Source: Malus domestica (lineage: Eukaryota > Streptophyta > Magnoliopsida > Rosales > Rosaceae). Taken from it: a DNA stretch of 64,000 bases. A model generated the notes under the pieces. It was not told where the DNA came from. It did no database searches and saw only the letters and a list, made by a program, of their open reading frames with translations. The stretch spans positions 11,106,001-11,170,000 of the forward strand of contig NC_091671.1 of NCBI RefSeq assembly GCF_042453785.1, in the 5' to 3' direction. Position numbers and translations under genes: made by a program. Shown one piece after another: positions 23,130 through 60,874 of this stretch; position 1 is the first letter of the stretch; every line of letters begins with the position of its first letter.

Positions 23130-23459
23130 AAGTTCAAAGATAAACAAATGATAAGAGAACTACTTGAACTCTACTTATTTTGGAGTTTGAGAACTTTTTC
23201 AAGCGAGTAAATGAATACAGCTTAGCTGCATTGTCAGCATGTACATAGCCATGAATACTAAATTGTACCTTGTCAATTCTTTGTCAAGACCCCTTTAATA
23301 ATCAAATCAAACTTCCCACTTGTCAATATTTAAGAACCCGAGCCCTTTTGGCCTTTGTTATGTTTATAAACTATGCAGATTTTCCATTCACAATCTGCCT
23401 CTATAAAACTAGTGTGACTTGTGATGATATCTCCCAACAAAGTAGCTAGAACAGAAATT
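23130..23459 (+). promoter_or_regulatory. FB1 promoter (type A)
   Basis: This stretch aligns with the regions just upstream of FB3, FB4 and FB5. Shared words include ATGATAAGAGAACT, AGCTGCATTGT, TTGTCAATTCTT, CCATTCACAATCTGCCT and a TATAAAA at 23402. The TATA lies about 60 bp before the ATG at 23460. It is intact, although the gene it served is cut after 14 bases. Confidence 0.75.
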
Positions 23460-23473
23460 ATGGAATCTGGTTC

Positions 23474-23713
23474 TATAGAAATTATGGCTTTAATTTGTAA
23501 TGTATTTCATGAGTTTAATGTACAAGGGATCCATATATATATGAGAAGAAAGAGGGGGAAGAAAGAGAAGCTAGCCTAATCTACACCTTACAAAAAACAA
23601 CTTGCACCAATCAATCACATCCCTTAAATCAAGGAAAGAAGACTAATTACTCTAGTCCCTAGAGAACATGGTAGCTGACTCTAGAGGCCAAAATACACTT
23701 CAACACTTCAACA
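23474..23713 (-). repeat. Copia 3' LTR
   Basis: 240 bp; in element orientation it starts TGTTGAAGTGTTGAAG and ends AATTTCTATA. The polypurine tract lies at 23714-23724. Confidence 0.92.
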
Positions 23714-23753
23714 CTCCCCCTCAAGCTGGATCGAGGAGGTTAACTGAGCCAAG

Positions 23754-26634
23754 CTAGCCTAATAATCGATGGAACTGAGTGGATGCCAATGTCTTTGTAA
23801 AGAGATCTGCTAATTGATCATGGCTTCGTGTGAACATGGTCCGGATGATTTGAGTTTGAACTTGAGCTCTGATGAAATGACAATCCACTTCAATATGTTT
23901 GGTTCTTTCATGGAACACAGGGTTGGCAGCAATATGCATGGCTGCCTGATTATCACACATAAGTGACATAAGAGTAGAACTAGAAAACCCTAAGTCTGAA
24001 AGAAACCCTTTAAGCCAAATGAGTTCACAAACAGTGGTTGCCATGGCTCGATACTCAGCCTCTGCGCTGGAACGAGCAATTACCTGTTGCTTCTTGCTCT
24101 TCCATGTGACAAGGTTTCCACCAACAAATGTATAATAGCCTGTGGTTGATTTCCTATCAATTGCATTACCTGCCCAGTCTACATCTGTGTAGCCACTAAT
24201 GACAATGGATTGATTGTTGTGCATTGTAATTCCTTGCCCTATTGAACCCTTGAGATAACGAAGGATTCTCTTAACAATGTTAAGGTGATCAACAGTGGAA
24301 GAGTGCATAAACTAACTAGCCAAGCTCACTGCATAAGGGATATCTGGACGAGTGATGGTGAGGTATATGAGCTTGTCTACTAATCGTTAATAGTAGGTTA
24401 CATCATGCATGGCTTCTCTATCTATGCTAAGGTTCAGTTACAATCAACGGGAGTGATAACAGGCTTGCAATCAAGCATTTTTGCTTCTTGAAGAAAGTCC
24501 AATACATATTTCCATTGATGTAGAAACATTCCTTTTGAAGATGTTGCCATTTCAATCCCTAAAAAATACTTTAACCTCCCCAAATCTTTGATAGCGAAAG
24601 TTTGATGTAGTGAGAGTTTTAGTGCTTCAATCTCCACGGTACTATCTCCAGTGATGATAAGATCATCAACGTAGATGAGGACCACCAACTTCCCACTGGT
24701 ACCAGTTCTCACAAATAACGAAGAATCAGCATTACTTCACAGGAATCCAGCATTTTCCAGAACAGAACTGAGCTTGGCATACCAAGCTCTTAGTGATTGT
24801 TTAAATCCGTATATTGCCTTGTGCAATTTGCAAACCATGTTGCCTTTGAAACCATCATAGCCTGGAGGAGGTTGCATATACATTTCTTCCTACAACTCTC
24901 CGTGAAGGAAAGCATTCTTCACATCCATTTGGTAGAGTGACCACCAACAATTGATTGCAACTGAAAGTAAAACCCTGACTGAGTTCATCTTGGCCACCGG
25001 TGCAAATGTTTCCTTATAATCTACTCCAAAGGTTTGGGTGAAACCTCGAGCAACAAGTCTAGCCTTGTGTCTCTCAATAGATCCATCAGCTTTGAATTTT
25101 GTCTTGTAAATCCAACGACTTCCAACATCGTTTTTTCCTGGTGGTAGTTAAACTAGACTCCAGGTGTGATTCTCTTCCAATGCACGAAACTCTTCTGTCA
25201 TGGCTTGTTTCCATTGTGGGAGAATAGAAGCATCTTGAAAGCTTCTTGGTTCACAGTGCTTATCAATTTCACTAAGAAATGCAGCATGAGATGTTGAGAA
25301 CTTACTAAAGCTGATACATTCAGTGATAGGATGCCGTGAGGCATATGTAACATAGTCTTGCAACCAAGCTGGAGGTTTTCTGATTCGATGAGGGTTTCTC
25401 TTAATCACATAAGACTCTGTAGTGGACTGAGAATGATCAGAGTAGGGCTCTTCTTCACTCTCACTAGCAATAATTTGGTCAGTTTGTACCTCTTCACAAT
25501 CTAGACTCATACTGGCTGATCTTTCTTCCAACATCGGATGATTAAAGTTTTGAGGGAGTGGGAACATGTCAACTAAATCCTCCCCCTGACTTGTAAAATA
25601 GGGACGGTCATCTTCAAACTTCACATCTCTTGAAACTGTGCACTTTTTAGTGACTGGATTGAAGCACTTGTATCCCTTTTGGGTGGCCGAGTATCCCATA
25701 AACACACACTTGGTTGCCCTAGCATCTAGTTTGTCATGGTTCAAGGTTTGGATGTGAACAAAAAAAAAACACAACCAAACACCTTGAGGTGTGTCAAATC
25801 TATTTTCCTCCCCTTGAGAACTTCATAGGGAGATTTAAACCCTAGCACACGACTTGGAAGTCGATTTATGAGATAAGTGGCAGTAAGGATGGCAAATGAC
25901 CAAAATTTCTTTGGAACATGCATGTGAATCATGAGAGCATGAGTCTTCTCCAAGAGATCTCTATTTTTCCTCTCAGCTACTCCATTTTGTTGATGAGTCC
26001 CTACACAGCTGGTTTGATGTATGATACCCTGAGAACTTATGTATTGAAGCATGTTGTTGGATAGAAATTCAGTGCCATTATCTGACCTTAAAACCTTAAT
26101 GTTTGATTGAAATTGTGTTTTAACATGCATGTGAAAATCTTTGAAAATGGTTGGGACTTCACTCTTTGATTTCATAAGATATAGAAAACTTGTTCGAGAG
26201 AAATCATCAAGAAATAGAACAAAGTACTTAAACCCTTCCATTGATTCAGTTGCAGGTCCCCATACATCGGTGTACACCATTTCAAAAGGTTTACTTGTCC
26301 TAGACATTGAATTACTAAAAGGTAGCCTAGTAAACTTAGAAAATTGACAAGTATCACAAGTAGGATAAGGGTTACAAAAATTTGGAAACGGTTTAGACAA
26401 GACAACTTCAGAAGGGTGAGCTAATCTCCTATGCCAAAATTGGTTTTCATCTATAGACTTCGATTGAGCTTGAAGAGCCTGAGTGAAACAGGCATTCTTG
26501 CATAGGTAGTAAAGTCCATTTATGAAGACCCCTTCACCAATCATCTTCATGGTGAGAACATCCTGAAACATCACATTATTTGGTGAGAAAATAGCACGGC
26601 AGTTTAGAATGTTGGTGATCTTTCCAATTGACAA
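23754..26634 (-). pseudogene. Copia pol: integrase, reverse transcriptase and RNase H
   Basis: Reading down the minus strand: the integrase zinc finger (HRRLAHPS and CDTCQFSK), the catalytic core with TDVWGP, LRSDNGTEFLS and GVAERKNR supplying the D,D,E residues, then reverse transcriptase with [11 protein letters not shown] and YVDDLIITGD, and last RNase H with VDWAGNAIDRKSTTGYY and SSAEAEYRAM. A TAG directly follows FLHGEL at about 24890, another stop lies near 24760, and the frame changes near 25760 and again near 24430-24310. The protein cannot be made as one piece. Confidence 0.92.
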
Positions 26635-26682
26635 AAGTTGGAAAGGAAATGTTGGTACATAGAGGGCAGTGGAAGGTATTTT

Positions 26683-27880
26683 TTAAGAGAGTAAGTTTAT
26701 TTCTCCTTTTTCCAAAACTAAGACATTTTTTCCATTTGCAACAGACACATGCGAGGGACTTGAAATTTTTTTTAAATGATGTAAATTTGTAACTTTGTTT
26801 GTCATATGATTTGTGGCGCCTGAATCAATTATCCAACAATCAGTTTCAGTACTAGTTAATAGGGCAGTAGTGAAGGCTTTGAGTATACTTGATACTTCTC
26901 CCTTTGGAACTTTCTCATTTCTAGCAAGAAAGCTATCAAATTGTCCCAACATAGCTGTGTGACTACCCTCTTCATTGCCTTGACCATGTGAGCCTCCTTC
27001 GTGTCCCTTACTTTGTAGGTAAGCTGCAAATTCATTGATCAATGATAATGGATTGGCAGTGAACTCCATGGATCCTTATGAAATAGTAAGAAGGTGAGCA
27101 TTAGCAAGTTGTGCCTTGAAATAAGGTTGAAATTGATGTGAGGACCTTGGTATCATCTTTCCATCTTTGCTGAACTTAGGCTTAAGTTCAGGATAAAGCT
27201 CCCAACACTTGTCTTCCACATGACCAACACCATTGCAATATTTGCATTTTAGATGTGTGTTTCTTCCCTTGTATACCTTGGCTTCTAAATTCTTGTAATT
27301 TGATGCATATGCCCAAGTGTCAGTCAATCTGGGGGTGTGATCAGTATTCATAACCTTCTTCCTTGCTTCTTCTCGTTGGATAGTTGCACAAACATTGTTG
27401 AAGGTAGGTAGGTCTTGACTCGTCAAGATGTATAGTTGCACAAACATTGTTGAAGGTAGGTAGGTCTTGACTCGTCAAGATGTGACTCCTTAGGTCCTCG
27501 TACTCAAAGCTCAAACTCCCTAACAGCTGATAAATTTTGTCTTCCTTAGCTCGTTTTAAGAGAATGGTAGGATCTGTGGTATGTGAGAGATATACATCCA
27601 ACTCATTCCACATGGCTTTGAGACTCCCAAGGTGTTGAACAAACGATTTCCCTTCTTGTTGAGCACTAGCAATGTCCTTCTTTAATTGGAAGACCCGCGC
27701 ATAGTTGTTTTGATTTCCATACATATCCTGCAAAGCTTTCCAAAGATCATGTGCGGAATTGGAGTAGCTAAAAATTTCAGCAACATGTTGCTCCATGGTG
27801 TTGAGCAGCAAGGACATGACAAGTTGATCTTTGCAGAGCCATGCATCGTATGTAGAGGAAGAACGGTCTGGAGCTTCCAC
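26683..27880 (-). pseudogene. Copia gag and protease
   Basis: The gag part has the UBN2-type core (WKALQDMYGNQNNYARVFQL) and a zinc knuckle CKYCNGVGHVEDKC of the CX2CX4HX4C type. The protease active site is CWIIDSGATNHMT. A 51 bp direct duplication at about 27372-27475 (GTTGCACAAACATTGTTGAA occurs twice, 51 bp apart) breaks the gag frame, because the two copies lie back to back. The start codon region near 27960-28075 is also decayed. Confidence 0.88.
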
Positions 27881-28138
27881 GCTTCCATTTACAAACCCTA
27901 ACTTTCCTTTGCCTCAAAGAGCTAGTGAAACAGCTCAGGACCAAGGAAGATAATTGAACTCGTTTAAGAGAACTGAACATAAACGTTGATTGGTGTTAAC
28001 CTCAACGTCTAAGAAGTTTGGAGAGAGACTATGCTGGGTTTCCTCATCATGGTTCACAGAACTTTCTTCAGCCATGACTTAGACTTTGAAAGAAAAAATT
28101 CGCAGCAACAAGAATGGCAAAGACAGGTTACAAAAGAA

Positions 28139-28153
28139 CCTGCGCTGATACCA
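28139..28153 (-). promoter_or_regulatory. Copia primer-binding site
   Basis: TGGTATCAGCGCAGG on the minus strand directly after the 5' LTR, one base different from the usual initiator-tRNA-Met complement. Confidence 0.85.
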
Positions 28154-28561
28154 TATAGAAATTATGGCTTTAATTTGTAATGTATTTCATGAGTTTAATG
28201 TACAAGGGGTCCAGATATATATGAGAAGAAAGAGGGGAAAGAAAGAGAAGCTAGCCTAATCTACACCTTACAAAAAGGGATGTGATATCCACACACCTTT
28301 TTTTACTTCTCACACACCCTTCTAATTTTCAACTGTTGGATCGAATGAATTGAAGAAGATCAACGGACAGAAATTAACAAAGGGTGTGTGAGAAGTAAAA
28401 AGGGGTGTGTGGATAGCACACTCCTACAAAAAACAACTTGCACCAATCAATCACATCCCTTAAATCAAGGAAAAAAGACTAATTACTCTAGTGCCTAGAG
28501 CTATCCCTAGAGAACATGGTAGCTGACTCTAAAGGCCAAAATACACTTCAACACTTCAACA
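28154..28561 (-). repeat. Copia 5' LTR carrying a MITE
   Basis: It equals the 3' LTR plus a 148 bp MITE, its eight-base duplication and a 12 bp insertion: 240 + 148 + 8 + 12 = 408 bp exactly. Confidence 0.92.
28277..28424. mobile_element. 148 bp MITE inside the Copia 5' LTR
   Basis: The ends are GGGATGTGATATCCACACACC (shortened) and, inverted, GGAGTGTGCTATCCACACACC (shortened), with further pairing of ACTTCTCACACACCC. TACAAAAA lies on both sides (28269-28276 and 28425-28432), and the other LTR shows the empty site with one copy. The eight-base duplication suggests the hAT group. Confidence 0.9.
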
Positions 28562-29746
28562 TGTTCCTAGCTTCCAAGAGAAATTATATATTTTCAGATA
28601 CTCCCAGGCTACCGTCCAAGTCCATGATGCGCTTCAAAAATACGCATGCAAGTCTTGGTCCTCTCTCGTCCCCAACCCTTTCTTTGACGATGCCCATCAA
28701 AATTTTCACCTTAACATGCTCACTCACCTCCTCCTCACCACCAGGGACAAAGCCACAAGGCAACAACACTTCCTCTCTGTACAAATCAACCAAGATGGAA
28801 GTCCAACACCCGCCATCTACCTTCTAAACCTTCCAATGTCCAATTATCATCGTCTCTACTATGCGCAAAGCACCAATGGCTTGGTTTGCCTTTACCTTTC
28901 AAACAACTTGTTTCGCAATCATACTCTAGCATATATTGATCCTCCGAATTTCATATTCAACCCCTGCACCCGAGAGTCTATTATTCTACCACATGCTTCA
29001 CCTGCATACTGGACATCTCACGTTACGTACCACTTTGGATTTAGTTCTCTAACAAAAGAGTATAAGGTTCTCCAAGTGCAAACATTCCGTCCTCATTCTA
29101 TTCCAATGGACATGACGTTTATGTGCAAGATATTCAAATTAGGTACAAGTTCATCATGGAGGCGCCTAGAGGTAGACCTGAACGATCTATCCTCTCGAGT
29201 GCCCGTTTCAGGTGCTAAGTGTGTGCATCAATGGGGCCATACATTGGATGCATGGGAAAGAAAATGTTGCGGTGGTTTATAGCATTGGAGATGAGAAATT
29301 TAGAGTGATCTCAAGATTATAACTGTTTTACACATCGTATTGGTTACCCCACGGGAGAAGTAATGAGAAATGGAGTTGATCGGATGGATGGATGTTTGGC
29401 ACTAATACGTGACAAGAAGTTGGTGAAATTACAGAATTCGATCGCGTAGTGGATTTTGAAAGACTACCAAATCAAGTGTGGGTTAGGGAGGCTATCATGT
29501 TTCCCCTTGGTTGGGGGGCGTTACGATGCCCTGTTCCATTGCGTAGCAATCACAATGGTGAGCTCCTCCTCCAGTCTACAGAGTTACGTGTGCATGAGCA
29601 GCCAGACCATGTGAGAGTGCATGTGTACAATATGGAGAGAAAGCTTTACGGGAAATGAAATTGGCTTGCCCTTCGAATGGACATTTCTGAACGATGCTCG
29701 ATTTAAGTTAATTGCTAGTTATGATAACATTGTGCCCTTACGATGA

Positions 29747-30653: not shown

Positions 30654-31022
30654 ATGGATCAAGATATGGAATCAGCTGGTTCCAAGCTCCCAAGCGAAAT
30701 TATATTCTTTCAGATACTCCCAAGGCTGCCGTCCAAGTCCCTGATGCGCTTCAAATGCGTACACGAGTCATGGTCCTCTCTCGTCTGCAACCCTTTCTTT
30801 GTCGACGCCCCATCAACCCTTACACCATATAAAGCTCACTCACCTCCTCCTCACCAGTTGAGACAAAGCCAAAAGGCAACAACACTTCCTCTTCAAAATC
30901 AACCAACAAGGAAATCCAACAGCCGCCACGCACCTCTAAACCTTCCAACATTGTCCTATGATCGTCTCTACAATGCAGAGAGCATCAACGGCACAGTCTT
31001 TCTTTACTTTTGGAGTGTGTGA
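30654..31022 (+). pseudogene. FB2: truncated F-box gene
   Basis: It starts MDQDMESAGSKLPSEI with a complete F-box ([15 protein letters not shown]). An extra C near 30805 shifts the frame, and a later loss of one base near 30930 restores it, so about 35 residues in the middle are scrambled before LNLPTLSYDRLYNAESINGT returns. The gene stops at 31022, where the sequence leaves the family; about 280 residues of the F-box-associated domain are gone. The following 31130-31250 resembles 58900-59040, which lies downstream of FB7, so an internal deletion between gene body and downstream flank is likely. Confidence 0.85.
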
Positions 31023-32169: not shown

Positions 32170-32614
32170 CCTAGTCTGCCTTACCTATTCTCTTATTTCA
32201 TGACCTAAGTTTTTTCCCTCTAAGTTGTAATCCTTTATTTTAGCACTAGCAATTATTTTGTAATTTTAAATTGGCTTTCTTTTATTTTTCTGACGTTCAC
32301 AGAATTAAACAAAATGATAAGAGAACTTGAGCTTATTTTGTATTTTGAGGACTTTTTCACGCGAGTTAACCAAGGCAGCTTTAGCTGCATTATCACAGCG
32401 ATGAATACAAGATTGTACATTGTCAATTCTTCAAGACAATAACGCCCATTCAATGATCAATCCAAACTCCGAACTCGTCATTATTTAAAGACCCTTGCCC
32501 TTTTTGCCTTCTTACGTTTATAAACTATGAACTTAAGTTCTTCCATTCACAATCTGCCTGTATAAAAATAGTTGTGACTAGTAAGGATATCGCCCAAGAA
32601 AGTAGAAGAGAAAC
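32170..32614 (+). promoter_or_regulatory. FB3 promoter (type A)
   Basis: It aligns over about 400 bp with the regions before FB4 and FB5, starting with AAGTTTTTTCCCTCT and including ATGATAAGAGAACTTGAGC. TATA-like boxes are TTTATAAACTATG near 32516 and TATAAAAA at 32561. This is an uninterrupted version of the family promoter and serves as reference for the broken ones. Confidence 0.7.
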
Positions 32615-33820
32615 TTGGAATCAAGTTCCGAGCTCCCAAGCGAAATTATATGCTTTCAGATACTCCCAAGGCTACCGTCCAAGTCCCTAATGCGCTTCAA
32701 ATGCGTATGCAAGTCTTGGTCCTCTCTTGTGCAGAACCCTTCCTTTGCCGATGCTCATCAAAGCTTACACCGTAACAAGCTTACTCACCTCCGCCTCACC
32801 ATTTGGGACACAGCCACAAGGCAACAACACTTCCTTTCTGTACAAATCAACCAAGACGGAAGTCCAACACCTGCCATCCACCTTCTAAACCTTCCAACAA
32901 TGTCCAATGATCATCGTCTCTACAACGCGCAAAGCACAAATGGCTTGGTCTGCCTTTACCTCTCAAACACCTTGTCTCACGATCATACTCTAGCATATCT
33001 TGATCCTCCCAATTTCATATTCAATCCTTGCACCCGAGAGTCTATTATTCTACCACATGCTTCACCTCCATACTGTACATCCCACATTACCTATCACTTT
33101 GGATTTAGTCCTCTTACAAACGAGTATAAGGTTCTCCAAGTGCAAACGTTCCGGCCTCACGATTCAATTCCAACGGATTTGACCTTTATGTTCAAGATGT
33201 TCAAATTAGGTACAAGTTTATGGAGGCGCCTGGAGATAGACCTTAACCACCTCGCTTTTGATCCTCTTGAGTGCCCGTTTAAAGTGCAAGGTGTGTGCAT
33301 CAATGGGGCCATACATTGGATGCATTGGAAAGAAAATGTTGTAGTGGTTTTTGATATTGGAGATGAGAAATTTAGAGTGATTCCACTTCCTCAAGATTAT
33401 ATCTGTTTTATTCATCGTATCTTGGGAGAAGTAATGAGAAATGTACTTGAGGTGGATGGATATTTGGCTCTAATAGGGGACAAGAAATTGATGACATTAC
33501 AAAATATGATGGCGTTATGGATTTTGAAGGACTACCAAAATCAAGTGTGGGTTAGAAAGACAATCATGCTTCCCCATTGTTGGAGGGCGTTAGGATGCCT
33601 CGTTCCATTGCGTACCATTCACAATGGTGAGCTGCTCCTCCAATCTACAGTATTACGTGTGCATGGGCCGCCGGGCCATGTGAGAGTGCATGTGTACAAT
33701 ATGGAGAGTAAAAGCTTTAGTGAAAGTGAAATTGGCTTGCCCTCCGAATGGACATTTAGGAACGATGCTCGATTGAAGTTAGTTGCTAGTTATGATGATA
33801 ACATTGTGCCCTTACGATGA
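32615..33820 (+). CDS. FB3: F-box/FBA protein, conserved ATG replaced by TTG
   Basis: A full 401-codon frame ends in the family's VPLR-stop. The F-box occupies about residues 5-45 ([24 protein letters not shown], split here) and the F-box-associated domain about 95-370, with LAYLDPPNFIFNPCTRESII, YHFGFSPLTNEYKVLQVQ and the WILKDYQNQVWVRK block. Proteins of this kind are substrate receptors of SCF ubiquitin ligases. The position of the ATG used by FB4 and FB5 (AAACATGGAATC) reads AAACTTGGAATC here. A TAG lies four codons upstream in frame, so no earlier ATG helps. The next in-frame ATG is codon 26, in the F-box itself. Either a TTG start is used, or this is a young start-loss pseudogene. Confidence 0.8.
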   Translation: MESSSELPSEIICFQILPRLPSKSLMRFKCVCKSWSSLVQNPSFADAHQSLHRNKLTHLRLTIWDTATRQQHFLSVQINQDGSPTPAIHLLNLPTMSNDHRLYNAQSTNGLVCLYLSNTLSHDHTLAYLDPPNFIFNPCTRESIILPHASPPYCTSHITYHFGFSPLTNEYKVLQVQTFRPHDSIPTDLTFMFKMFKLGTSLWRRLEIDLNHLAFDPLECPFKVQGVCINGAIHWMHWKENVVVVFDIGDEKFRVIPLPQDYICFIHRILGEVMRNVLEVDGYLALIGDKKLMTLQNMMALWILKDYQNQVWVRKTIMLPHCWRALGCLVPLRTIHNGELLLQSTVLRVHGPPGHVRVHVYNMESKSFSESEIGLPSEWTFRNDARLKLVASYDDNIVPLR

Positions 33821-35134: not shown

Positions 35135-36342
35135 ATGGAATCTAGTTCTGATGAGATCCCAACCGACATTATATGCTTTCAAATACTCCCAAGGCTACCG
35201 TCCAAGTCCCTGATGCGCTTCAAATGCGTTTGCAAGTCTTGGTCCTCTCTCATCCGCAACCCTTCCTTTGCCGATATTCATCAAAGCTTCCACCGTAACA
35301 AGCTCACTAACCTCCTCCTCACCACTTGGGACAAAGCCGCAAGGCAACAACACTTCCTCTCTGTACAAATCAACCAAGACGGAAGTCCAACACCCACCAT
35401 CCACCTTCCAAACCAGTATCCAATGATCATCGTCTCTACAATATGCAAAGCACCAATGGCCTGATCTGCCTTTACCTTTCAAACACCCTGTCTCGCGATC
35501 ATGCTCTAGCATATCTTGATCCTCCCAATTTCATATTCAACCCTTGCACCCGAGAGTCTATTATTCTACCACATGCTTCACCTGCATACCGTACATCCCA
35601 CGTTACGTACCACTTTGGATTTAGTCCTCTTACAAACGAATATAAGGTTCTCCAAGCGCAAACGTTCCGGCCTGATGATTCAATTCCAACGGATATGACC
35701 TTTATGTTCAAGATATTCAAATTAGGTACAAGTTTACGGAGAACCCTGGAGGTAGACCTTAACGATCTCCCTTTTGATCCTGTCAAGTGCCAGTTTAATA
35801 AAAGTGCGAAGTGTGTGCATCAATGGGGCCATACATTCGATGCATAGGAAATAAAATGTTGTAGTGGTTTTAGACATCGGAGATGAGAAATTCAGAGTGA
35901 TCTCACTTTCTCAATATTATATTTATTTTAGACATCGTATTGGTTACCCCACGGCAGAAATAATGAGAAATGTTGTTGAGGTAGGTGGATGTTTGGTTAT
36001 AATAGGTGACAAGAAATTGATGAAATCACGAGATACGTTATGGATTTTGAAGGACTACGAAAATCAAGTGTGGATTAGGGAGGCTATCAAATTTCCCCTT
36101 TGTTGGAGGGCGTTAGGTGCCCCGTCCCATTGCGTACCATTCACAATGGTGAGCTCCTCCTCCAGTCTACAGACTTACGTATGCATGAGCCGCAGGACCA
36201 TCTGAGAGTGCATGTGTACAACATGGAGAGTAAAAGCTTCATGGGAAGTGTAATTGGCTTGCCCTCCGAATGGACATTTCGTAACGATGCTCGATTGAAG
36301 TTAGTCGCTAGTTATGATGATAACATTGTGCCCTTACGATGA
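35135..36342 (+). pseudogene. FB4: frameshifted F-box gene
   Basis: The start [16 protein letters not shown] and the F-box are intact. A deletion near 35415 shifts the frame. The next piece, LAYLDPPNFIFNPCTRESII to LNDLPFDPVKCQF, is followed by an indel near 35795, then AAA-TAA in place of Lys-Glu near 35850, and a lost base near 36117. The final part returns with NGELLLQSTDLRMHEP and VPLR-stop. At least three frameshifts and one nonsense codon make it a pseudogene. Similarity to FB3 and FB5 remains very high along its whole length, so decay is recent. Confidence 0.92.
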
Positions 36343-36660
36343 GATGTGATGGGATCATCAAGATTAATTTAATGAGGCACCAAATCTGTTTTTTTTTTTT
36401 TTTTTGGTACAATCAATGATATAGGGATTTCAGCTAAGCTACCCATTCAAAAGGAATTTCAGCTGGCTCATTCCAATTGCTCTAAGCGGGGAAAAGGGGT
36501 AGGTTGCATTAGTAGCAATAGTCTGGGTCTTGATGTGTAGTGCGGCTTGCCTAATCCTGATGAAATGAGCTAAGTTTTTTCCCTCTTAGTTGTAATCTTT
36601 TATTTAAGCAATAGCAATTATTTTGTAATTTAGATTGGCTTTTTTTTTTTTTTCATTTTC
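36343..36660. other. Intergenic, FB4 to FB5 promoter
   Basis: A T-rich run and sequence similar to 32150-32270 (AAGTTTTTTCCCTCT). No gene. Confidence 0.5.
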
Positions 36661-37116
36661 TAAAGTTCAAAAAATTTAAACAAAATGATAAGAGAACTTG
36701 AGCTTATTTTGTATTTTGTAGACTTCTTCAAGCGAGTTAACCAAAGCAGCTTTAGCTGCATTGTCCACACACAGCGATGAAAACAAGATTGTACGTTGTC
36801 AATTCTTCAAGACAACAACGCCCCTTCAATGATAAATCCGAACTTTGAACTTGTCATTATTTAAATACCTTTCCCCTTTTACCCATCTTACGTTCCTAGA
36901 TACAGTATGGTTTGAGTTTGCGGTTTAATTTGGATATGGAATTCGCTAGTAACGTTTAGTATCACTTGTCAAATAGTAGACATAAATAGTACAATATTCA
37001 GTTCAATTCATTTTAAATTCGTTAAAGAATAATGATTGATCTGTAAATAAATGTATTTGTAATTATACATTTAGTATTTTACAATTAATTTGGAGAATTA
37101 CTATTACTACTTTTAA

Positions 37117-38426
37117 GGGTAAATTACATAGTAGCCCCTCAGATTTGAGGTCTATAGCAATCTTATACAACATCTTTAAAACATTTCACTTTCATACCTG
37201 AAGTACTATTTTATTTCAATTTCATACAACCGTTACATTTTCCATTCATGGATCTGTTAAATGCTGACGTGGCTGCCACATATATGTCACGTGGCTGCCA
37301 AATGTCTGCCACGTGGCAAATAAAATAAATTTTTTTTAAAAAAAAAAACATGTCTGCCACTTTTTTTTTTTCTTTTTTTTCTCTTTCTTCTTCTCTTTCT
37401 TCTTCTTCTTCTTCTGGGTTCGGTCCCTTTTTTTTTTTTTTGGTTCTTCTTCTTCTTCTTCTTCTTCTTCCTCCTCCTCCTCCTTATCTTCTTCTTCTTC
37501 CTCCTTCTTCTTCTGGGTTGCAGGGGGTTCGATCATTTTTTTTTCTTCTTCTTCCTCCTCCTCCTCTTTCTTCTTCTCTTCTTCTTCTACCTCCTTTTGG
37601 TTCAGTCCCTTCTTTTTTTTTTCTTTTTTTTTTCTTCTTCTTCTTCCTCCTCCTCCTCTTTCTTCTTTTCTTCCTCCTCTTTCTTCTTCTCTTTTGGGTT
37701 CGGTCCCTTTCTTTTTTTTTTTTCTTCTTCTTCTTCTTCTTCCTCCTCCTCCTCTTTCTTCTTCTCTTCCTCCTCTTTCTTCTTCTCTTCTGGGTTCGGT
37801 CCCTTTCTTTCTTTCTTTTTTTTCTTCTTCTTCCTCCTCCTCCTCCTCTTTCTTCTTTTCTTCTTCTTCTTCCTCCTCCTTCTTCTTCTCTTCTTCTTCT
37901 TCCTCCTTCTTCTTCTGGGTTCGGTCCCTTTCTTTTTTTTCTTTTTTTTCTTCTTCTTCTTCTTCTTCCTCCTCCTCCTCTTTCTTCTTCTCCTCTTCTT
38001 CTTCCTTCTTCTCTTCTTCTTCTTCCTCCTTCTTCTTCTGGGTTCGGTCCCTTTCTTTTTTTTTTCTTTTTTTTTTTTCTTCTTCTTCTTCTTCTTCCTC
38101 CTCCTCCTCTTTCTTCTTCTCTTCTTCTTCCTCCTTCTTCTTCTAGGTTGCAGGGGTTCGGTCCCTTTTTTTTTTCCTTTCAATTTCAGGTTTTTTTTTA
38201 AAAAATTAAAAAATTATTTTATTTGCCACGTGGCAGACATTTGGCAGTCACATGACATATATGTGGCAGCCACGTCAGCATTTAACAGATCCATGGATGG
38301 AAAATGTAACGGTTGTATGCAATTGAAATAAAATAGTACTTGAGGTATGAAAATGAAATGTTTTAAAGATGTTGTATAAGATTGCAAATATACTTCAAAC
38401 CTAAAGGGCTACTATGTAATTTACCC
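37117..38426. mobile_element. Mutator-like element (1310 bp) with polypyrimidine core
   Basis: Terminal inverted repeats of about 210 bp start GGGTAAATTACATAGTAGCC on both ends (inverted on the right). The nine bases TACTTTTAA flank it on both sides (37108-37116 and 38427-38435), the Mutator signature. The core 37360-38190 is a pyrimidine-only style array (T runs, CTT and CCT) punctuated by GGGTTCGGTCCC words. No transposase is present, so it is non-autonomous. The inverted repeats carry several ACGTG cores, including the palindrome GCCACGTGGC at 37308 and 38225, which match plant G-box sites. Confidence 0.93.
37361..38190. repeat. Polypyrimidine minisatellite, ~85-125 bp spacing
   Basis: The strand is almost only T and C between punctuating words (GGGTTCGGTCCC, GGTTCAGTCCC or GGTTGCAGGG) near 37417, 37514, 37598, 37695, 37791, 37915, 38038 and 38144. 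The long frames rich in Phe, Ser and Leu (or Lys, Glu and Arg in reverse) are a composition artefact. Confidence 0.92.
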
Positions 38427-38987: not shown

Positions 38988-40196
38988 ATGGAATCAGCTG
39001 GCTCCGAGCTCCCAAGCGAAATTATATGGTTTCAGATACTACCAAGGGTACCGTCCAAATCCCTGATGCGCTTCAAATGCGTATGCAAGTCATGGTCCTC
39101 CCTCGTCCGCAACCCTTCCTTTGTCGATGCTCATCAAAGCTTCCACCGGAACAAGCTCACTCACCTCCTGCTCACCACTTGGGACAGAGCCACAAGGCAA
39201 CAACACTTCCTCTCTGCACAAATCAACCAAGACGGACCTCCAACACCCGCCATCCACCTTCTAAACCTACCAATGGGCAGTGATCATCGTCTCTACAATG
39301 CGCAAAGCACGAATGGCTTGGTCTGCCTTTACCTTTCAAACAACTTATCTCGTCATCATACTCTAGCATATCTTGATCCTCCCAATTTCATATTCAACCC
39401 TTGCACCCGAGAGTCTATTATTCTACCACATGCTTCACCTGCATACTGTACATCCCACGTTACCTATCACTTTGGATTTAGTCCTCTTACAAATGAGTAT
39501 AAGGTTCTTCAAGTGCAAACGTTCCGGCCTCACGATTCAATTCCAACGGATATGACCTTTATGTTCAAGATATTCAAATTAGGTACTAGTTTATGGAGGC
39601 GCCTAGAGATAGACCGTAACGATCTCCCTTTTGAACCTCTCAAATGTCCGTTTCAAGTGCAAAGTGTGTGCATCAATGGGGCCATGCATTGGATGCATTT
39701 GAAAGAAAATGTTGTTGTGGTTTTTGACATTGGAGACGAGAAATTCAGAGTGATCCCACTTCCTCAAGATTATGTTTGTTTTATACATCGTATTGGTTAC
39801 CCCATGGGAGACGCAATGAGAAATGTGGTTGAGATGGGCGGATGTTTGGCTCTAATAGGTGACAAGAAATTGGTGAGATCACAGAATATGATGGCGTTAT
39901 GGATTTTGAAGGACTACGAAAATCAAGTGTGGATCAGGGAGGCTATCACATTTCCCCTTCGTTGGAGGGCTTTAGGATGCCCCGTTCCATTGCGTACCAT
40001 TCACAATGGTGAGCTCCTCCTCCAATCTATAGAATTACATGTGCATGAAGCGCCGGACCATGTGAGAGTGCATGTGTACAATATGGAGAGTAAAAGCTTT
40101 AGGGGAAGTGAAATTGGCCTGCCCTGGGCATTTCTTAACGATGCTCGATTGAAGTTAGTTGTTTGTTATGATGATAACATTGTGCCCTTACGATGA
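38988..40196 (+). CDS. FB5: intact F-box/FBA protein (402 aa)
   Basis: A clean frame of 402 residues starts at the family ATG (AAACATGGAATC). The F-box is at about residues 6-46 (LPSEIIWFQILPRVPSKSL), and the F-box-associated domain follows, with LAYLDPPNFIFNPCTRESII, SHVTYHFGFSPLTNEYKVLQ, the MHWMHLKENVVVVFDIGDEK block and WILKDYENQVWIREA. The C-terminus ends VPLR as in FB3 and FB6. Such proteins act as SCF E3 ligase receptors via SKP1-like partners; the target is unknown. The coding part is sound, but its promoter is split by 2.0 kb, so expression may differ from its sisters. It resembles Rosaceae S-locus-type F-box proteins only in the F-box and general layout; it is not an SFBB by its N-terminus. 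Confidence 0.9.
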   Translation: MESAGSELPSEIIWFQILPRVPSKSLMRFKCVCKSWSSLVRNPSFVDAHQSFHRNKLTHLLLTTWDRATRQQHFLSAQINQDGPPTPAIHLLNLPMGSDHRLYNAQSTNGLVCLYLSNNLSRHHTLAYLDPPNFIFNPCTRESIILPHASPAYCTSHVTYHFGFSPLTNEYKVLQVQTFRPHDSIPTDMTFMFKIFKLGTSLWRRLEIDRNDLPFEPLKCPFQVQSVCINGAMHWMHLKENVVVVFDIGDEKFRVIPLPQDYVCFIHRIGYPMGDAMRNVVEMGGCLALIGDKKLVRSQNMMALWILKDYENQVWIREAITFPLRWRALGCPVPLRTIHNGELLLQSIELHVHEAPDHVRVHVYNMESKSFRGSEIGLPWAFLNDARLKLVVCYDDNIVPLR

Positions 40197-40821: not shown

Positions 40822-40904
40822 ATGGATCAAGACATGGAACCAGCTGGATCCGAGCTTCCAAGCGAAATTATATGCTTTCAAGGCTGCCGTCCAAGTTCCT
40901 GATG
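40822..40904 (+). pseudogene. FB5b: 83 bp stub of an F-box gene
   Basis: It starts MDQDMEPAGSELPSEIICF, then lacks about 11 bases (the CAGATACTCCC word) and continues AGGCTGCCGTCCAAGTTCCTGATG before leaving the family completely at 40905. The rest of the gene is absent from the window at this place. Confidence 0.88.
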
Positions 40905-42356: not shown

Positions 42357-43571
42357 ATGGATCAAGACATGGAATCAGCTGGCTCCGAGCTCCCAAGCGA
42401 AATCATATGCTATCAGATACTACCAAGGCTGCCGTCTAAGTCCCTCATGCGATTCAAATGCGTAGGCAAGTCTTGGTCCTCTCTCGTCCGCAGCCCTTCC
42501 TTTGTCGACGCCCATCAAACCTTCCACCGTAACAAGCTCAATCACCTTCTCCTCACTACTTGGGACAAATCCACAAGGCAACAACACTTCCTCTCTGTGC
42601 AAATCAACCAAGAAGGAATTCCAACAGCTGCCACGCACCTTCTAAACCTTCCAACATTGTCCTTCAATCAACGTCTCTACAATGTAGAGAGTATCAACGG
42701 CTTGGTCTTCCTTTACCCTTCGAATACCGTGTTCCCCCATCACAATCAAGCCAATCGTGATAATCTTCTTCGCATGTTAAATCCCTCAACACGGGAGTTT
42801 ATTGCTCTTCCACATGCATTTCCCAGGTGCTGCCGTCGTGCCCATTCTACACATCACTTCGGGTTTAGTCCTCTTACAAATGAATATAAAGTTCTCCAAG
42901 TGCAAAGGTTTCAGCCTCGTGATTCTATGACAAGGGCTATGACTTTTATGTTCAAGATATTCAAATTAGGTACAAGTTTATGGAGGTGCATAGAGTTAGA
43001 CCTTAATGACCTCCCTTTTGATCCTTTCAAGTGCCCGTTTCATAGGAGAAGTGTGAGTGTCAATGGCGCCATACATTGGATGCATGACACACAAAATATC
43101 TTAGTGGTTTTCGACATTGCAGATGAGAAATTCAAAGTAATCACAATTCCTCACAATTATAATTGTGCTATACATAAATTTAACTTTGCATATGGGAATA
43201 TAGTTGAAGTGTTTGGATGTTTGGCGCTAATTGGCGACGAGCAGTTGACACAACAAAATATGATGGGGTTATGGATTTTGAAGGACTACGAAAATCAAGT
43301 GTGGGTTAAGGAGACTTTCAGATTTCCCTTTGTTTGGAGTGAATTCGGATACCCCGTCCCTTTCTGTTCCATTCACACAGGTGAGCTCATCCTCCAATCT
43401 TCGAAGTTAAGTAGACAACACCCGAATCATGTGAGGCTGCATCTCTACAATATGAAGAGTAAAAGTTTTAGGGAAAGTGAAATTGTTTTGCCCTCCGAAT
43501 GGAGATTCCAGTATGATACTCGATTGACTTTACTTGCTAGCTTTGATGATAGCGTTGTGCCCTTAAGATGA
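42357..43571 (+). CDS. FB6: intact F-box/FBA protein (404 aa)
   Basis: A clean 404-codon frame. It starts MDQDMESAGSELPSEI; the second Met (codon 5) is the one that aligns with FB3-FB5, so initiation at either is possible. The F-box covers about residues 10-50 and the F-box-associated region about 95-375, with FGFSPLTNEYKVLQVQRFQ, AIHWMHDTQNILVVFDIADE and WILKDYENQVWVKETFRFP. It is more diverged from FB1/FB3/FB4/FB5 than they are from each other, especially at residues 115-150 and in the C-terminal third, and it groups with FB7 in the latter (VPFCSIHT/VPFCIIHT, QSxxLSRQ). It is presumed to be an SCF substrate receptor. Confidence 0.9.
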   Translation: MDQDMESAGSELPSEIICYQILPRLPSKSLMRFKCVGKSWSSLVRSPSFVDAHQTFHRNKLNHLLLTTWDKSTRQQHFLSVQINQEGIPTAATHLLNLPTLSFNQRLYNVESINGLVFLYPSNTVFPHHNQANRDNLLRMLNPSTREFIALPHAFPRCCRRAHSTHHFGFSPLTNEYKVLQVQRFQPRDSMTRAMTFMFKIFKLGTSLWRCIELDLNDLPFDPFKCPFHRRSVSVNGAIHWMHDTQNILVVFDIADEKFKVITIPHNYNCAIHKFNFAYGNIVEVFGCLALIGDEQLTQQNMMGLWILKDYENQVWVKETFRFPFVWSEFGYPVPFCSIHTGELILQSSKLSRQHPNHVRLHLYNMKSKSFRESEIVLPSEWRFQYDTRLTLLASFDDSVVPLR

Positions 43572-44849: not shown

Positions 44850-45415
44850 TCTTCCGTGACCGTGAGATAATAGGTCCTCTCCCAGAGCCGCTGTAATTTT
44901 GGCGCCGCCGCGAGCAGCACCGGCCAAACAGCCACAATCTCTCCAACTCCAAGGTTCTAGCGAATTGGTCTCAAACGACCCACGAATAAGATCAAGCGAC
45001 CAAATCGGAAATCTCCAAGGGTTTGAGCGAATTGAGTGACAGTCCTCCCTCCCACTTGTGTTGCAGATTCTCAATTCTGTACAAGGAAAGCCAATTACCA
45101 AAACGGCGCCGCTTAAAACTTTGAAGGATCACAGTGCAGAAGCTCGAGGACAAACTTCACAAGTGTGATTATTTGAACAATCACATCCCCAGAGAGCTTC
45201 GCTACGAAAAGGTATGCTTTCCAATTTTTCATTTTTTCATCTTATTTTTAGGTTATAGCAAATTAAGAAGAGAGAATTCCAAGTTGGTTTTCGGGCCGAT
45301 AAGTCGATCGTTGGGTGCGTTGAGCAATGGTTGTGAACTGGATTATGGGTGTCCTTTTAGAGGCCTTCAATTTGTTTGTAGTGATGTATTCCGTTTGATC
45401 GTATTGTAGGATCGA
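44850..45415 (+). promoter_or_regulatory. SEN2 promoter, leader exon and leader intron
   Basis: A GC-richer stretch (44870-45110) precedes a probable untranslated exon ending CGCTACGAAAAG|GTATGC at 45210. A leader intron then ends TTGTAG at 45409/45410, six bases before the ATG. The frame VQKLEDKLHKCDYLNNH seen here opens only with GTG and runs into the intron, so I treat it as leader. Confidence 0.55.
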
Positions 45416-46159
45416 ATGGGGCCTAGATGGAAAGGAAAAGGCGCAGAAGCTAAGGCACTTGCAGATCCAATGTCAAAGATAGTATTGAAGCTTCAGTCAT
45501 CTCTAATCCAATCAGATGCCCGAGGAATCTTATGCGGGAGCAGCGTACTTCTTGCTGCAGAAGAAGAACAAGCCCTTCTCTTCAGTCGTGCCTACTTTGG
45601 CCACCCGATTGTTAATGCCGATAAGGATAGGCAGTGGTTTCAGTTGGGCATGGAAGAGGCATTTTTCCTGTGCTATTCTTTAAAATGCCTCAAGATAGCG
45701 GGCGAAGACAAACGCCCGAAGGACGATCAAGAGCTTTGGCAGTGCATGAAGTCCGAAAAAGCGGGATTTCCTGTATTTTACAAGGCGTATTCTCACCTTC
45801 GAACGAAAAATTGGGTTGTGAGACCCGGACTTCAATATGGTGCGGACTTTGTTGCTTACCGTCACCATCCGAGTTTGGTCCATTCTGAATATGCTGTGCT
45901 CGTGTCATCAGAAGGAGATGCTGAAGCAAATGGGCGATTGAATGTGTGGTCTGATGTTCATTGCACCTTAAGGCTTTGTTTAGGGGTTGTAAAGACATTG
46001 CTAGTTCTTACTATTAGTAAGAATGGTGATGATGATGCCTCTCCGTCATGTTTGGCGAACTACACGGTCGACGAGCGCACAGTTACAAGATGGAGTCCGG
46101 AACAAAGCCGCGAGGAAGATACAACAACAGATAATGCGGAATCACAAGCAACAGAGTAG
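45416..46159 (+). CDS. SEN2: tRNA-splicing endonuclease subunit Sen2 (247 aa)
   Basis: This enzyme is the catalytic subunit that cuts the 5' exon-intron border of intron-containing pre-tRNAs. The frame is a single exon, starting MGPRWKGKGAEAKAL. The C-terminal tRNA-intron endonuclease domain lies at about residues 117-200: FPVFYKAYSHLRTKNWVV, then the active-site run GADFVAYRHHPSLVHSEYAV. By position the catalytic residues are Tyr148, His156 and Lys193; the Tyr-His spacing of eight equals that of yeast Sen2. The N-terminal part (about 25-95) holds the family's auxiliary helical region. The length is normal for plants. It lies tail to tail with the tetraspanin gene, with 560 bp between stop codons. 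A 116 bp near-identical fragment of it is found at 3929-4044. Confidence 0.92.
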   Translation: MGPRWKGKGAEAKALADPMSKIVLKLQSSLIQSDARGILCGSSVLLAAEEEQALLFSRAYFGHPIVNADKDRQWFQLGMEEAFFLCYSLKCLKIAGEDKRPKDDQELWQCMKSEKAGFPVFYKAYSHLRTKNWVVRPGLQYGADFVAYRHHPSLVHSEYAVLVSSEGDAEANGRLNVWSDVHCTLRLCLGVVKTLLVLTISKNGDDDASPSCLANYTVDERTVTRWSPEQSREEDTTTDNAESQATE

Positions 46160-49700: not shown

Positions 49701-50433
49701 TTCTTTTCTTTTCCATACGATAAATTTTGTTAAATTTTGTTAGATTAACCACCAATGAGGTTTGAATTCACGTTATTATGCAAGAGCTCAAAACATTTTC
49801 ACCACTGTGATAAAGGTTCCTTACCAAAAAATAAAGTTTCTAAATCCCATACAAATTTTTTTTAAATAAATAAATTCAGATGCAAAAACATGAATAAAAA
49901 TTTAATTATTCACATACCTGGATAGAGTTGAGCTTTCTGCTGAAAAACATGTCAGCAGTCTCAGGCACACCATTCACACTCCTCCCAATCTTTTGACAAG
50001 CTTTTGAGTCCCTCACACAAGACGCAATCTTCCTCCAGTAGCCATTATCCGCCACGCGGTCCTTCAGCCAGCCGGAATAGTCCTGCAGGTAGTAGTCCTT
50101 GTAACCCTTATTCGTCAACGACCTCCCGGAGCCCTTGTCAGTGACGGCGTAGGCGAAGATAATGAAGCCGATGAGGGCGGCGATGACGAAGAACATGACG
50201 AACAGGTACACCCACATGAGGAAGGTGTTCCTGTAGCACGCACCAGCGAACCCAGCAAGAGAAACCACCATGATTGCGGCCCCTATGACGATGAGCGGCC
50301 ATTGGAGGAACTTGAGGCAGTCGGTGTTGTTGGCGCGGCTGCTCAGCCAGATTCCTCCGCCCAGGATGGGGATCGAGAGGAGGAAAGTTACGAAATTTAG
50401 TAGTCCAATCAAGTGGTTGCTGGTCCTCATCAT
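46720..50433 (-). CDS. Tetraspanin-8-like protein (286 aa, 2 exons)
   Basis: Plant tetraspanins organise plasma-membrane microdomains and occur on exosomes; TET8 is the usual exosome marker. Exon 1 is 49918-50433 and exon 2 is 46720-47064; donor CAG|GTATGT and acceptor TCTACAG join NSIQ to SGCCKPP. Four membrane segments are visible: LIGLLNFVTFLLSIPILGGG (about 8-28), FLQWPLIVIGAAIMVVSLAG (42-61), WVYLFVMFFVIAALIGFIIF (74-93), and VSVVNIVVLIILVIFYVIGC near 238-257. The large outer loop has the plant-specific GCCKPP motif with a following ECGY, and CYSC/CNSC cysteines. Two ATGs are adjacent (MMRTSN); either can start. The intron place before GCC is the usual one for the TET7/8/9 group. Length and frame look normal. 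Confidence 0.93.
47065..49917 (-). other. Tetraspanin intron (2.85 kb)
   Basis: Very AT-rich, without any exon-like sequence. It holds the Mutator-type MITE at 47444-47657. It is unusually long beside a 0.86 kb coding sequence, but the splice signals are good. Confidence 0.8.
47444..47657. mobile_element. Mutator-type MITE in tetraspanin intron
   Basis: Ends GAACCGGGATCCTGCTGGAT and, inverted, CCAAGAGGATCCTCACCGGA. ATAATATCT lies on both sides (47435-47443 and 47658-47666). Interior words (AAAACTGAC, ACGATGAACG) match 13044-13266. The nine-base duplication supports the Mutator group. Confidence 0.85.
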
Positions 50434-50600
50434 TGTGGAATCTCTTTTTTTTTTCGGGGTTTTCTTTTTGTCTGCCTTTTTTTCTTTCTGGGTTTTGTTT
50501 TTTGGAAGGTTTGGAGATTTGGTTTCTTCTGTTTCTGCTGCTGCTCTGCTTTGAAGATGCTTAAAGTTCGGAGTTTTGATGAGTAGTCTGAGATGCAGGT
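50434..50600 (-). promoter_or_regulatory. Tetraspanin 5' UTR / promoter-proximal region
   Basis: On the minus strand the leader is A- and G/A-rich (T/CT on plus) with the ATG in the context CCACAATGATG. No TATA box can be pinned with confidence. Confidence 0.4.
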
Positions 50601-50831
50601 GTCGTTGTTTTATAAGGGGTGAAATTATATGTTATCTGTACTCTCTCTATGCAAATGACCTGACTACCCTTTGTGCTTTGAATTTGTCCCAAAGTGTTCA
50701 TGGTAGCTACTTTTCACTCTTTCGACTTTTTCACACGTTTTTTGTTCATATAATTAACAACTTAAACAAAACATCGTACATGATTAAATAAGAGTCCGTA
50801 AATAAAGAAAAATGTGTTTATCACTTTTCTT

Positions 50832-59691: not shown

Positions 59692-60874
59692 TCAAGGGTT
59701 CAATGCTTTCCTCGTAACTAGTAAGCAACTTGAATCAGTCCCAGTCAAATAAGCCCATTTGTCGGGGAAAACAATATCACTTCTCCTCAAACTTTCATTA
59801 TTCATGTTGTATAGAATCACCTTCATGTAGGCAGGGTTCTGTCTGCTCAACCCTGCAGATTGGAGGAGGAGCTCATCTGTGTGAATGATACAAAAAGGAA
59901 CAGCGTACCCTGACTCTGCCCAACGAGGAACAACGATGATCTACTTAACCCAGTTCTGTTTTTCGTAGTCCTTTAAAATCCATAACCCCATAATTTCATT
60001 TTTCATCATACTCCTGTCACCTATTAGACCCAAATATCCACCCACACCAACTATATTTCCCACGGGATACCTAACAAGATGCGTGAAACAAGTATAATCT
60101 TCAGGAAGTGGAATCACTCTGAATTTCTCGTCTCCAATGTCGAAAACCACAATGGGGTTGTGTGTCCCATGCATCCAATGTATGGTCCCATTTACGCACA
60201 CACTTCGCCTGTGAAAGGGGAATTTAAGAGGATCAAAAGAGATATCATTAAGGTCTACCTCTATGGGCCTCCATAAACTTGTCCCCATTTTAAATACCTT
60301 GAACATAAAATGCACATCTCCCACAGCAGGGATATGCTTTTGCACTAGTAGAACTTTATACTCATTTGTAAGAGGACTGTACCCGAAATGGTGTGTAACA
60401 TGTGCTGTGCAGGACGCAGGTGAAGTGTGGGGAAGAGATATAGACTATCGGGTGCTGGGGATGAATATGCGTACGGGGTGGTTTGGATCTGTTTGTTTGG
60501 GAGCTGAGGTATTAGAAAGATAAAAACAGGCCAAGCCGTTCATACACTGTGCAGTGTAGAGACGTTCACTTTCGATTGGCGGCGTTTGAAGGGTTAGAAG
60601 ATGGGCAGCCGGTGTTAGACTTCCTTGTTGGTTATTTGTAAGGAGAAGAAGTGTTGCTGCTTTGTGGTTTTGTACGAGGCCGTGAGAAGGAGGTGAGTGT
60701 GCTTGTTGCAACCCAAGTTTTGATGGGCATATTGACAAATGAAGGGTTGCAAGTGAGAGAGGACCAAGACTTGCATACACACTTGAAGCGCATCAGAGAC
60801 TTGGATGGTAACCTTGGGAGGATCTCAAAGCATGTAACTTGGCTAGGGAGCTCTGGACCAGCTGATGATTCCAT
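59692..60874 (-). pseudogene. FB7: F-box gene with frameshifts and two nonsense codons
   Basis: It starts MESSAGPELPSQVTCFEILP with a full F-box ([17 protein letters not shown]). A small insertion near 60735 and another indel near 60630 disturb the frame between about residues 48 and 85. In the main frame a TAG replaces the Glu codon after IFIPSTR at about 60444, and a second TAG lies at 59941-59943 after QNWVK. The frame continues past both with LPHTSPASCTAHVTHHFGYS and then VPFCIIHTDELLLQSAGLSR, ending with TGA at 59692. It is most like FB6 in its C-terminal half. It is inverted and 16 kb away from the cluster. Confidence 0.9.

Follow-up and report, generated by a model that had tools for sequence, protein, structure and literature searches.

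A single-base change behind the loss of the standard start codon of an otherwise intact F-box gene in Malus domestica

The locus FB3, one of a cluster of F-box/FBA_3 genes in Malus domestica, raises the question of how a gene should be read when it is complete except at the codon that defines its start. Plant genes with an F-box and an FBA_3 domain are of the kind that act as adaptors of SCF ubiquitin ligases. A preliminary description of the surrounding DNA (64,000 nucleotides of contig NC_091671.1, positions 11,106,001 to 11,170,000 of the forward strand; this whole stretch is referred to here as the window, and coordinates are given within it) presented FB3 as 401 open codons with TTG in place of the initiating ATG. 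It offered three readings, namely a very fresh loss, initiation at a non-AUG codon, or a switch to an F-box-less protein acting as a competitor. The features of FB3 on which the answer depends are the following.

32525..32614, + strand: conserved promoter and leader of FB3, identical to FB5 at 88 of 90 bases and to FB4 at 85 of 90
32561..32567, + strand: TATAAAA box of FB3, 54 bases before the TTG and at an equal distance in FB4 and FB5
32603..32605, + strand: TAG stop in the FB3 frame, four codons ahead of the TTG
32612..32627, + strand: perfect 6-bp inverted repeat AACTTG-GAAT-CAAGTT, in which the TTG is included
32615..33820, + strand: FB3 reading frame, 401 codons (TTG counted) followed by TGA at 33818-33820
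32615..32617, + strand: TTG replacing ATG, with A at -3 and G at +4
32650..32775, + strand: out-of-frame AUG, the first one downstream of the TTG, heading a frame of 41 codons; -3 is T and +4 is C
32690..32692, + strand: next in-frame ATG, codon 26, within the F-box, with C at both -3 and +4

The FB3 frame contains neither an in-register stop nor a frameshift, and its four gaps relative to FB5 (3, 3, 9 and 6 bases) are each a multiple of three. The two genes differ at 114 of 1188 coding bases, and the FB3 protein is 84% identical to that of FB5 and 65% identical to that of FB6. Read from the TTG, residues 5-44 constitute an F-box (Pfam PF00646, 26.2 bits against a cut-off of 20.5; PF12937, 28.4 bits against a cut-off of 24.3), and residues 226-343 a C-terminal FBA_3 domain (PF08268, 56 bits against a cut-off of 20.7). 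The start is set in the sequence GAAGAGAAAC-TTG-GAATC. At the matching position all seven other copies found within the window have ATG, and TTG occurs in FB3 only. A single-base change is behind the loss of the standard start, while the remainder of the gene is intact; the original account of 401 open codons with TTG for ATG is thus borne out by the frame itself and by the seven ATG copies. An earlier in-frame start, which had been excluded on the grounds of an upstream stop, is indeed blocked by the TAG at 32603-32605. This stop is also present in FB4 and FB5, and so is not peculiar to FB3.

A homology census revealed eight F-box/FBA_3 copies in the window, five of which are broken or fragments. 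FB5 and FB6 have an ATG and a full open frame; FB1, FB4 and FB7 are long but broken; two copies are fragments; and FB3 is the eighth. The other copies are disposed as follows.

23327..23473, + strand: promoter and ATG half of FB1, with the ATG at 23460, severed from the body by a Copia element
28562..29743, + strand: frameshifted body of FB1, on the downstream side of the Copia element
30666..31010, + strand: FB2, a 5' fragment with its ATG at 30666
35135..36342, + strand: FB4, ATG kept, frameshifting gaps relative to FB5 of -4, +4 and -1, and one in-register stop
38988..40196, + strand: FB5, a paralogue that is intact: ATG present, both F-box and FBA_3 above cut-off
40834..40904, + strand: FB5b, a very short 5' fragment with its ATG at 40834
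42369..43571, + strand: FB6, open over its full length, with ATG and with FBA_3 above cut-off
59722..60874, - strand: FB7, ATG kept at 60874, frameshifting gaps and two in-register stops

FB5 resembles FB3 in its length, in having both domains above cut-off, and in the 90-nt promoter and leader that the two have in common, but it starts with ATG. FB6 is also of similar length with FBA_3 above cut-off; it differs from FB3 in starting with ATG and in having an F-box-like match of only 18.1 bits, below the Pfam cut-off of 24.3. The preliminary description had further spoken of a split of FB3 from FB5, which goes beyond the tree, in which FB5 is not securely resolved as the sister of FB3 (support 32 and 46). 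FB6 has a second in-frame ATG at 42357, four codons before the common ATG (42357-42371). FB2 and FB5b carry the same bases as FB6 ahead of their ATG, and this spare upstream start of the FB6-type copies is absent from FB3, FB4 and FB5.

The missing start of FB1 is explained by the insertion of the Copia element, which lies on the minus strand (23474-28561; gag and integrase matches) within the fifth codon from the ATG. Its LTRs (23474-23713 and 28154-28561) show 5 differences in 240 aligned bases, and the element is bordered by GGTTC and TGTTC, apparently a target-site duplication in which one base is mismatched. The right LTR contains, at about 28268-28425, an inserted segment of roughly 156 bases that the left LTR lacks; with inverted-repeat-like ends between repeats of TACAAAAA, this segment resembles a small MITE. 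Upstream of FB5, nearly 800 bases (37370-38144) are made up mostly of runs of TTC, CTC and T, arranged as imperfect units each about 96-129 bases long, and 37301-38400 is 81% pyrimidine; long frames opened by this stretch on both strands are probably spurious. Flanking genes encode a tRNA-intron endonuclease (45410-46159, + strand) and a tetraspanin (49906-50631, - strand). To see whether FB3 could be an S-locus F-box (pollen self-incompatibility) gene, a linked S-RNase was sought: two short T2-RNase patterns gave no match in the six frames of the 64-kb window, although the linkage block could be larger. Relatives were also sought further afield: none of 126 pattern-scan stretches in viral contigs and none of 188 in prokaryote contigs was confirmed, and a profile search of solved structures gave no match at 0.01.

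The history of the FB3 coding sequence was assessed using a branch codon model for six of the eight copies, FB2 and FB5b being left out as fragments. Codon 1 was skipped and gapped or stop codons were masked; the codons kept, out of 401, were 401 for FB3, 392 for FB4, 396 for FB5, 378 for FB1, 392 for FB6 and 377 for FB7. A star topology was used for FB1, FB3, FB4 and FB5 because the tree does not resolve their branching. The omega value on the FB3 branch is 0.52 (profile 95% range about 0.3 to 0.9), which is lower than 1 (2dlnL 5.17, p = 0.023) and is separable neither from that of the broken class (p = 0.55) nor from that of the intact class (p = 0.88). Changes private to one copy were tallied per base, so that a codon with two changes is counted twice, and only where FB1, FB3, FB4 and FB5 are all unmasked. 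FB3 has 23 nonsynonymous and 18 synonymous private changes, below the neutral 74% nonsynonymous (p = 0.011). The corresponding numbers are 19 and 19 for FB5 (p = 0.0015 against neutral), 39 and 15 for the broken FB4 (p = 0.45), and 35 and 22 for the broken FB1 (p = 0.028), which departs from neutral as well, subject to a small error in the FB1 counts, its first few codons being Copia LTR and not homologous. The ratio in FB3 shows no significant difference from that in FB4 (p = 0.13) or FB5 (p = 0.65). Ten of the 23 counted private amino-acid changes of FB3 fall within the 56 codons of residues 315-370 (33557-33724).

The FB3 coding sequence was, then, under constraint for much of its own history. 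Since FB3 is not separable from the broken copies, and FB1 is itself non-neutral, these measures speak of the past and not of the present. The dN/dS comparison that had been proposed as a check gives an omega below 1, which favours past constraint and overlaps with both the intact and the broken class; it bears on whether FB3 was once a gene, not on whether it is one still. On omega alone, the unconstrained share of the FB3 branch could be up to about 0.8. When the absence of stops and frameshifts is added, the joint bound becomes at most about 0.24-0.29, a rough figure that uses a frameshift rate from copies in which constraint probably acted for some of the time, and a neutral substitution count from the model. 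In simulations of 64 neutral substitutions, which is about the length of the FB3 branch (0.0536 per site over 1203 sites), the FB5 frame remained stop-free in 10.8% of cases, indels not being counted.

The promoter of FB3 had also been described as conserved, and the match to FB5 at 88 of 90 upstream bases, together with the TATAAAA box, agrees with this. The promoter and leader of FB3 are closer to those of FB5 than the two coding sequences are to each other (p = 0.013); the comparison with FB4 shows no significant excess of this kind (p = 0.15). The alignment of FB3 with FB5 starts at 32525, exactly where the 90-nt promoter and leader stretch begins. Constraint would be the simplest reason for the identity of this stretch. 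Alternatively, the identity could stem from a tract of local conversion between FB3 and FB5, and here it is relevant that the codons adjacent to the leader differ between the two genes. Because the promoter and leader are intact, FB3 is probably still transcribed. Part of the sequence upstream of FB3 recurs on its own at 36538-36894, where it is 84% identical to 32172-32518 and no F-box body was found adjoining it.

The inverted repeat at the start codon may be a hint to how the start base changed. No fold is formed by the corresponding 19 bases of FB4, FB5 or FB6, and for a 62-base segment the predicted folding energy is -10.2 kcal/mol for FB3 against -4.2 for FB4, -4.8 for FB5 and -8.8 for FB6. 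The chance of a random substitution in the reading frame falling in such a repeat is 1.5%, on which basis the change may have been templated by a quasi-palindrome; the test is a post hoc one, and no weight is placed on it here. Among 44 private substitutions checked, there was none in which the FB3 base lies inside such a repeat and one that abolished a repeat, the start base being absent from the 44 because FB1 has transposon sequence there.

If the transcript is made, it might still be translated from the UUG at a reduced level, to give a weakly expressed full-length F-box protein. A good context at -3 and +4 aids near-cognate starts, and among the seven near-cognate codons that lie in frame from the TAG to codon 26 only the TTG combines A at -3 with G at +4, at the head of a frame that is fully open and was formerly constrained. 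However, the ATG of FB4 and that of FB5 stand in the same context, which therefore represents no adaptation to UUG. The position of the TATA box would imply a leader of only about 20-25 bases, and the FB3-specific 6-bp hairpin covers the UUG and would be expected to hinder initiation rather than help it. In Arabidopsis, UUG accounts for 9.74% of the alternative initiation sites called from initiating ribosomes, whereas 68 downstream starts with N-terminal peptide support comprised 61 AUG and only one TTG (PMC8770321). In the same study TTG served as the disabling change in constructs in which ATG-to-TTG replacement identified, in vitro, which start gave which product: for two of the three genes, IPP2 and PUX1, product then came only from the unchanged start, and for NAC014 there were extra smaller products. 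These data make the use of UUG at some sites credible, and lead one to expect that an ATG-to-TTG change costs most of the protein. A narrow search, of titles and abstract openings in the open-licence literature, found no plant F-box gene with a UUG start. UUG initiation at FB3 is possible, with nothing specific to FB3 in its favour, and we consider it unlikely. The more far-reaching proposal, that FB3 is functional and weak by this route and that the start change switched the dosage of a duplicated ubiquitin-ligase adaptor without putting an end to it, is less likely again. If UUG were in use, FB3 would be a natural experiment, and a clean one, on how a nuclear gene of a plant is translated from a non-AUG codon, and the ATG paralogue behind a nearly identical leader would be its built-in control. 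Translation from codon 26 would instead produce an F-box-less FBA protein competing with FB5 or FB6. The frame is open for 376 codons from this point and FBA_3 is intact, and it had been correctly foreseen that such a start would halve the F-box: the product covers only positions 23-40 of the 43-position Pfam model and scores 15.0 bits against the cut-off of 20.5. What had been missed is the out-of-frame AUG at 32650, which precedes the AUG of codon 26 and makes it only the second in line. Three further out-of-frame AUGs follow by 32751, and the five AUGs downstream of the TTG in a scan to 32800 all lack both a purine at -3 and a G at +4, so that the contexts of both the first AUG and that of codon 26 are poor. 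Met26 is a conserved internal residue of FB5 and FB6 too. The F-box part shows no sign of relaxation, with one of the 23 counted private amino-acid changes (H40Q) in codons 1-45, a weak test on a short stretch, and none in codons 1-25, a test weakened further by its span of 25 codons with one missing codon masked and by the transposon sequence in the first codons of FB1. We regard such a competitor as very unlikely.

The T could, alternatively, be a sequencing or assembly error, or an allele that is not fixed, most individuals carrying ATG in FB3. It is the sole lesion in an otherwise open and formerly constrained gene, as such an explanation would have it, and near-identical tandem copies are prone to mis-joining. 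On the other hand the start base is outside any homopolymer, the window is without N, and nearby differences that are FB3's own, including a missing codon adjoining the start, argue against a collapse with FB5, even if these arguments leave the start base itself untouched. We judge an error or a minor allele improbable, and infer that the TTG change is fixed in the species. Far less probable is that the conserved promoter now drives a non-coding FB3 transcript that acts on FB5 or FB6 RNA, for example as a source of small RNA. The better preservation of the promoter than of the coding sequence relative to FB5, with the 114 coding differences between the two genes, would suit a role of this kind, but the past constraint tracks codons and not merely sequence, and the promoter is also well kept in the broken FB4 (85 of 90 bases). 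The least probable of all is that an upstream exon provides an AUG by splicing. Three codons ahead of the TTG are open in the same frame; against this, the six AGs from 32602 to 32632 are preceded by only 25-45% pyrimidines and 10-25% T, the four better AGs from 32640 to 32683 (50-65% pyrimidines) would cut into the F-box, and the TATA box is 54 bases upstream of the TTG. A spliced-in start was rejected because the acceptors near the TTG are poor.

The best explanation is a loss that has recently begun: FB3 appears to be a young F-box/FBA_3 duplicate that worked for much of its separate history, has recently lost its AUG, and is now decaying, and we put the probability of this at roughly 0.72. 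What the analysis shows is the base change in an open frame, a coding sequence constrained in the past, a promoter that is conserved, and neighbouring copies that are broken. The proposed course is that one base change removed the AUG after this working period, while the transcript probably continued to be produced, as the intact promoter and leader suggest. Scanning ribosomes would mostly skip the UUG, and many would use the out-of-frame AUG 35 bases onward, with the consequence that little or no F-box protein would be produced. FB3 would then be at an early step of the decay that is already plain in FB1, FB4 and FB7. Against a loss it must be said that the absence of a second lesion is equally to be expected of a gene still in use, and that the UUG is in good context and belongs to a class with 9.74% of alternative initiation sites in the Arabidopsis data (PMC8770321). 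Of the three readings in the preliminary description, then, the very fresh loss fits best, given the past constraint, the in-frame gaps only, the conserved promoter and the many broken copies, its freshness being only loosely bounded; the F-box-less competitor is not supported, and a non-AUG start is without support specific to FB3.

The near-cognate starts of Arabidopsis resemble FB3 in the UUG codon itself, but they rest on ribosome or peptide evidence (PMC8770321), whereas FB3 is known from its sequence and bears no sign of adaptation to UUG. The other comparison is with the F-box (FBX) genes of plants, whose pseudogenes are common in several species and, in one survey, were called by a frameshift or a premature stop (PMC3030570). 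With these pseudogenes, and with the short-lived lineage-specific FBX genes of the same survey, FB3 shares the F-box and FBA module, the situation in a tandem cluster and the company of several broken copies. It is unlike the pseudogenes described there in having neither frameshift nor premature stop but only a lost start, and the rule of that survey would for that reason presumably have scored it as intact. It is likeliest that the loss of FB3 is an ordinary event for this gene family, in a cluster of the birth-and-death kind (PMC3030570), and that FB3 represents an early stage of F-box gene death which a frameshift-or-stop criterion of that sort would miss.
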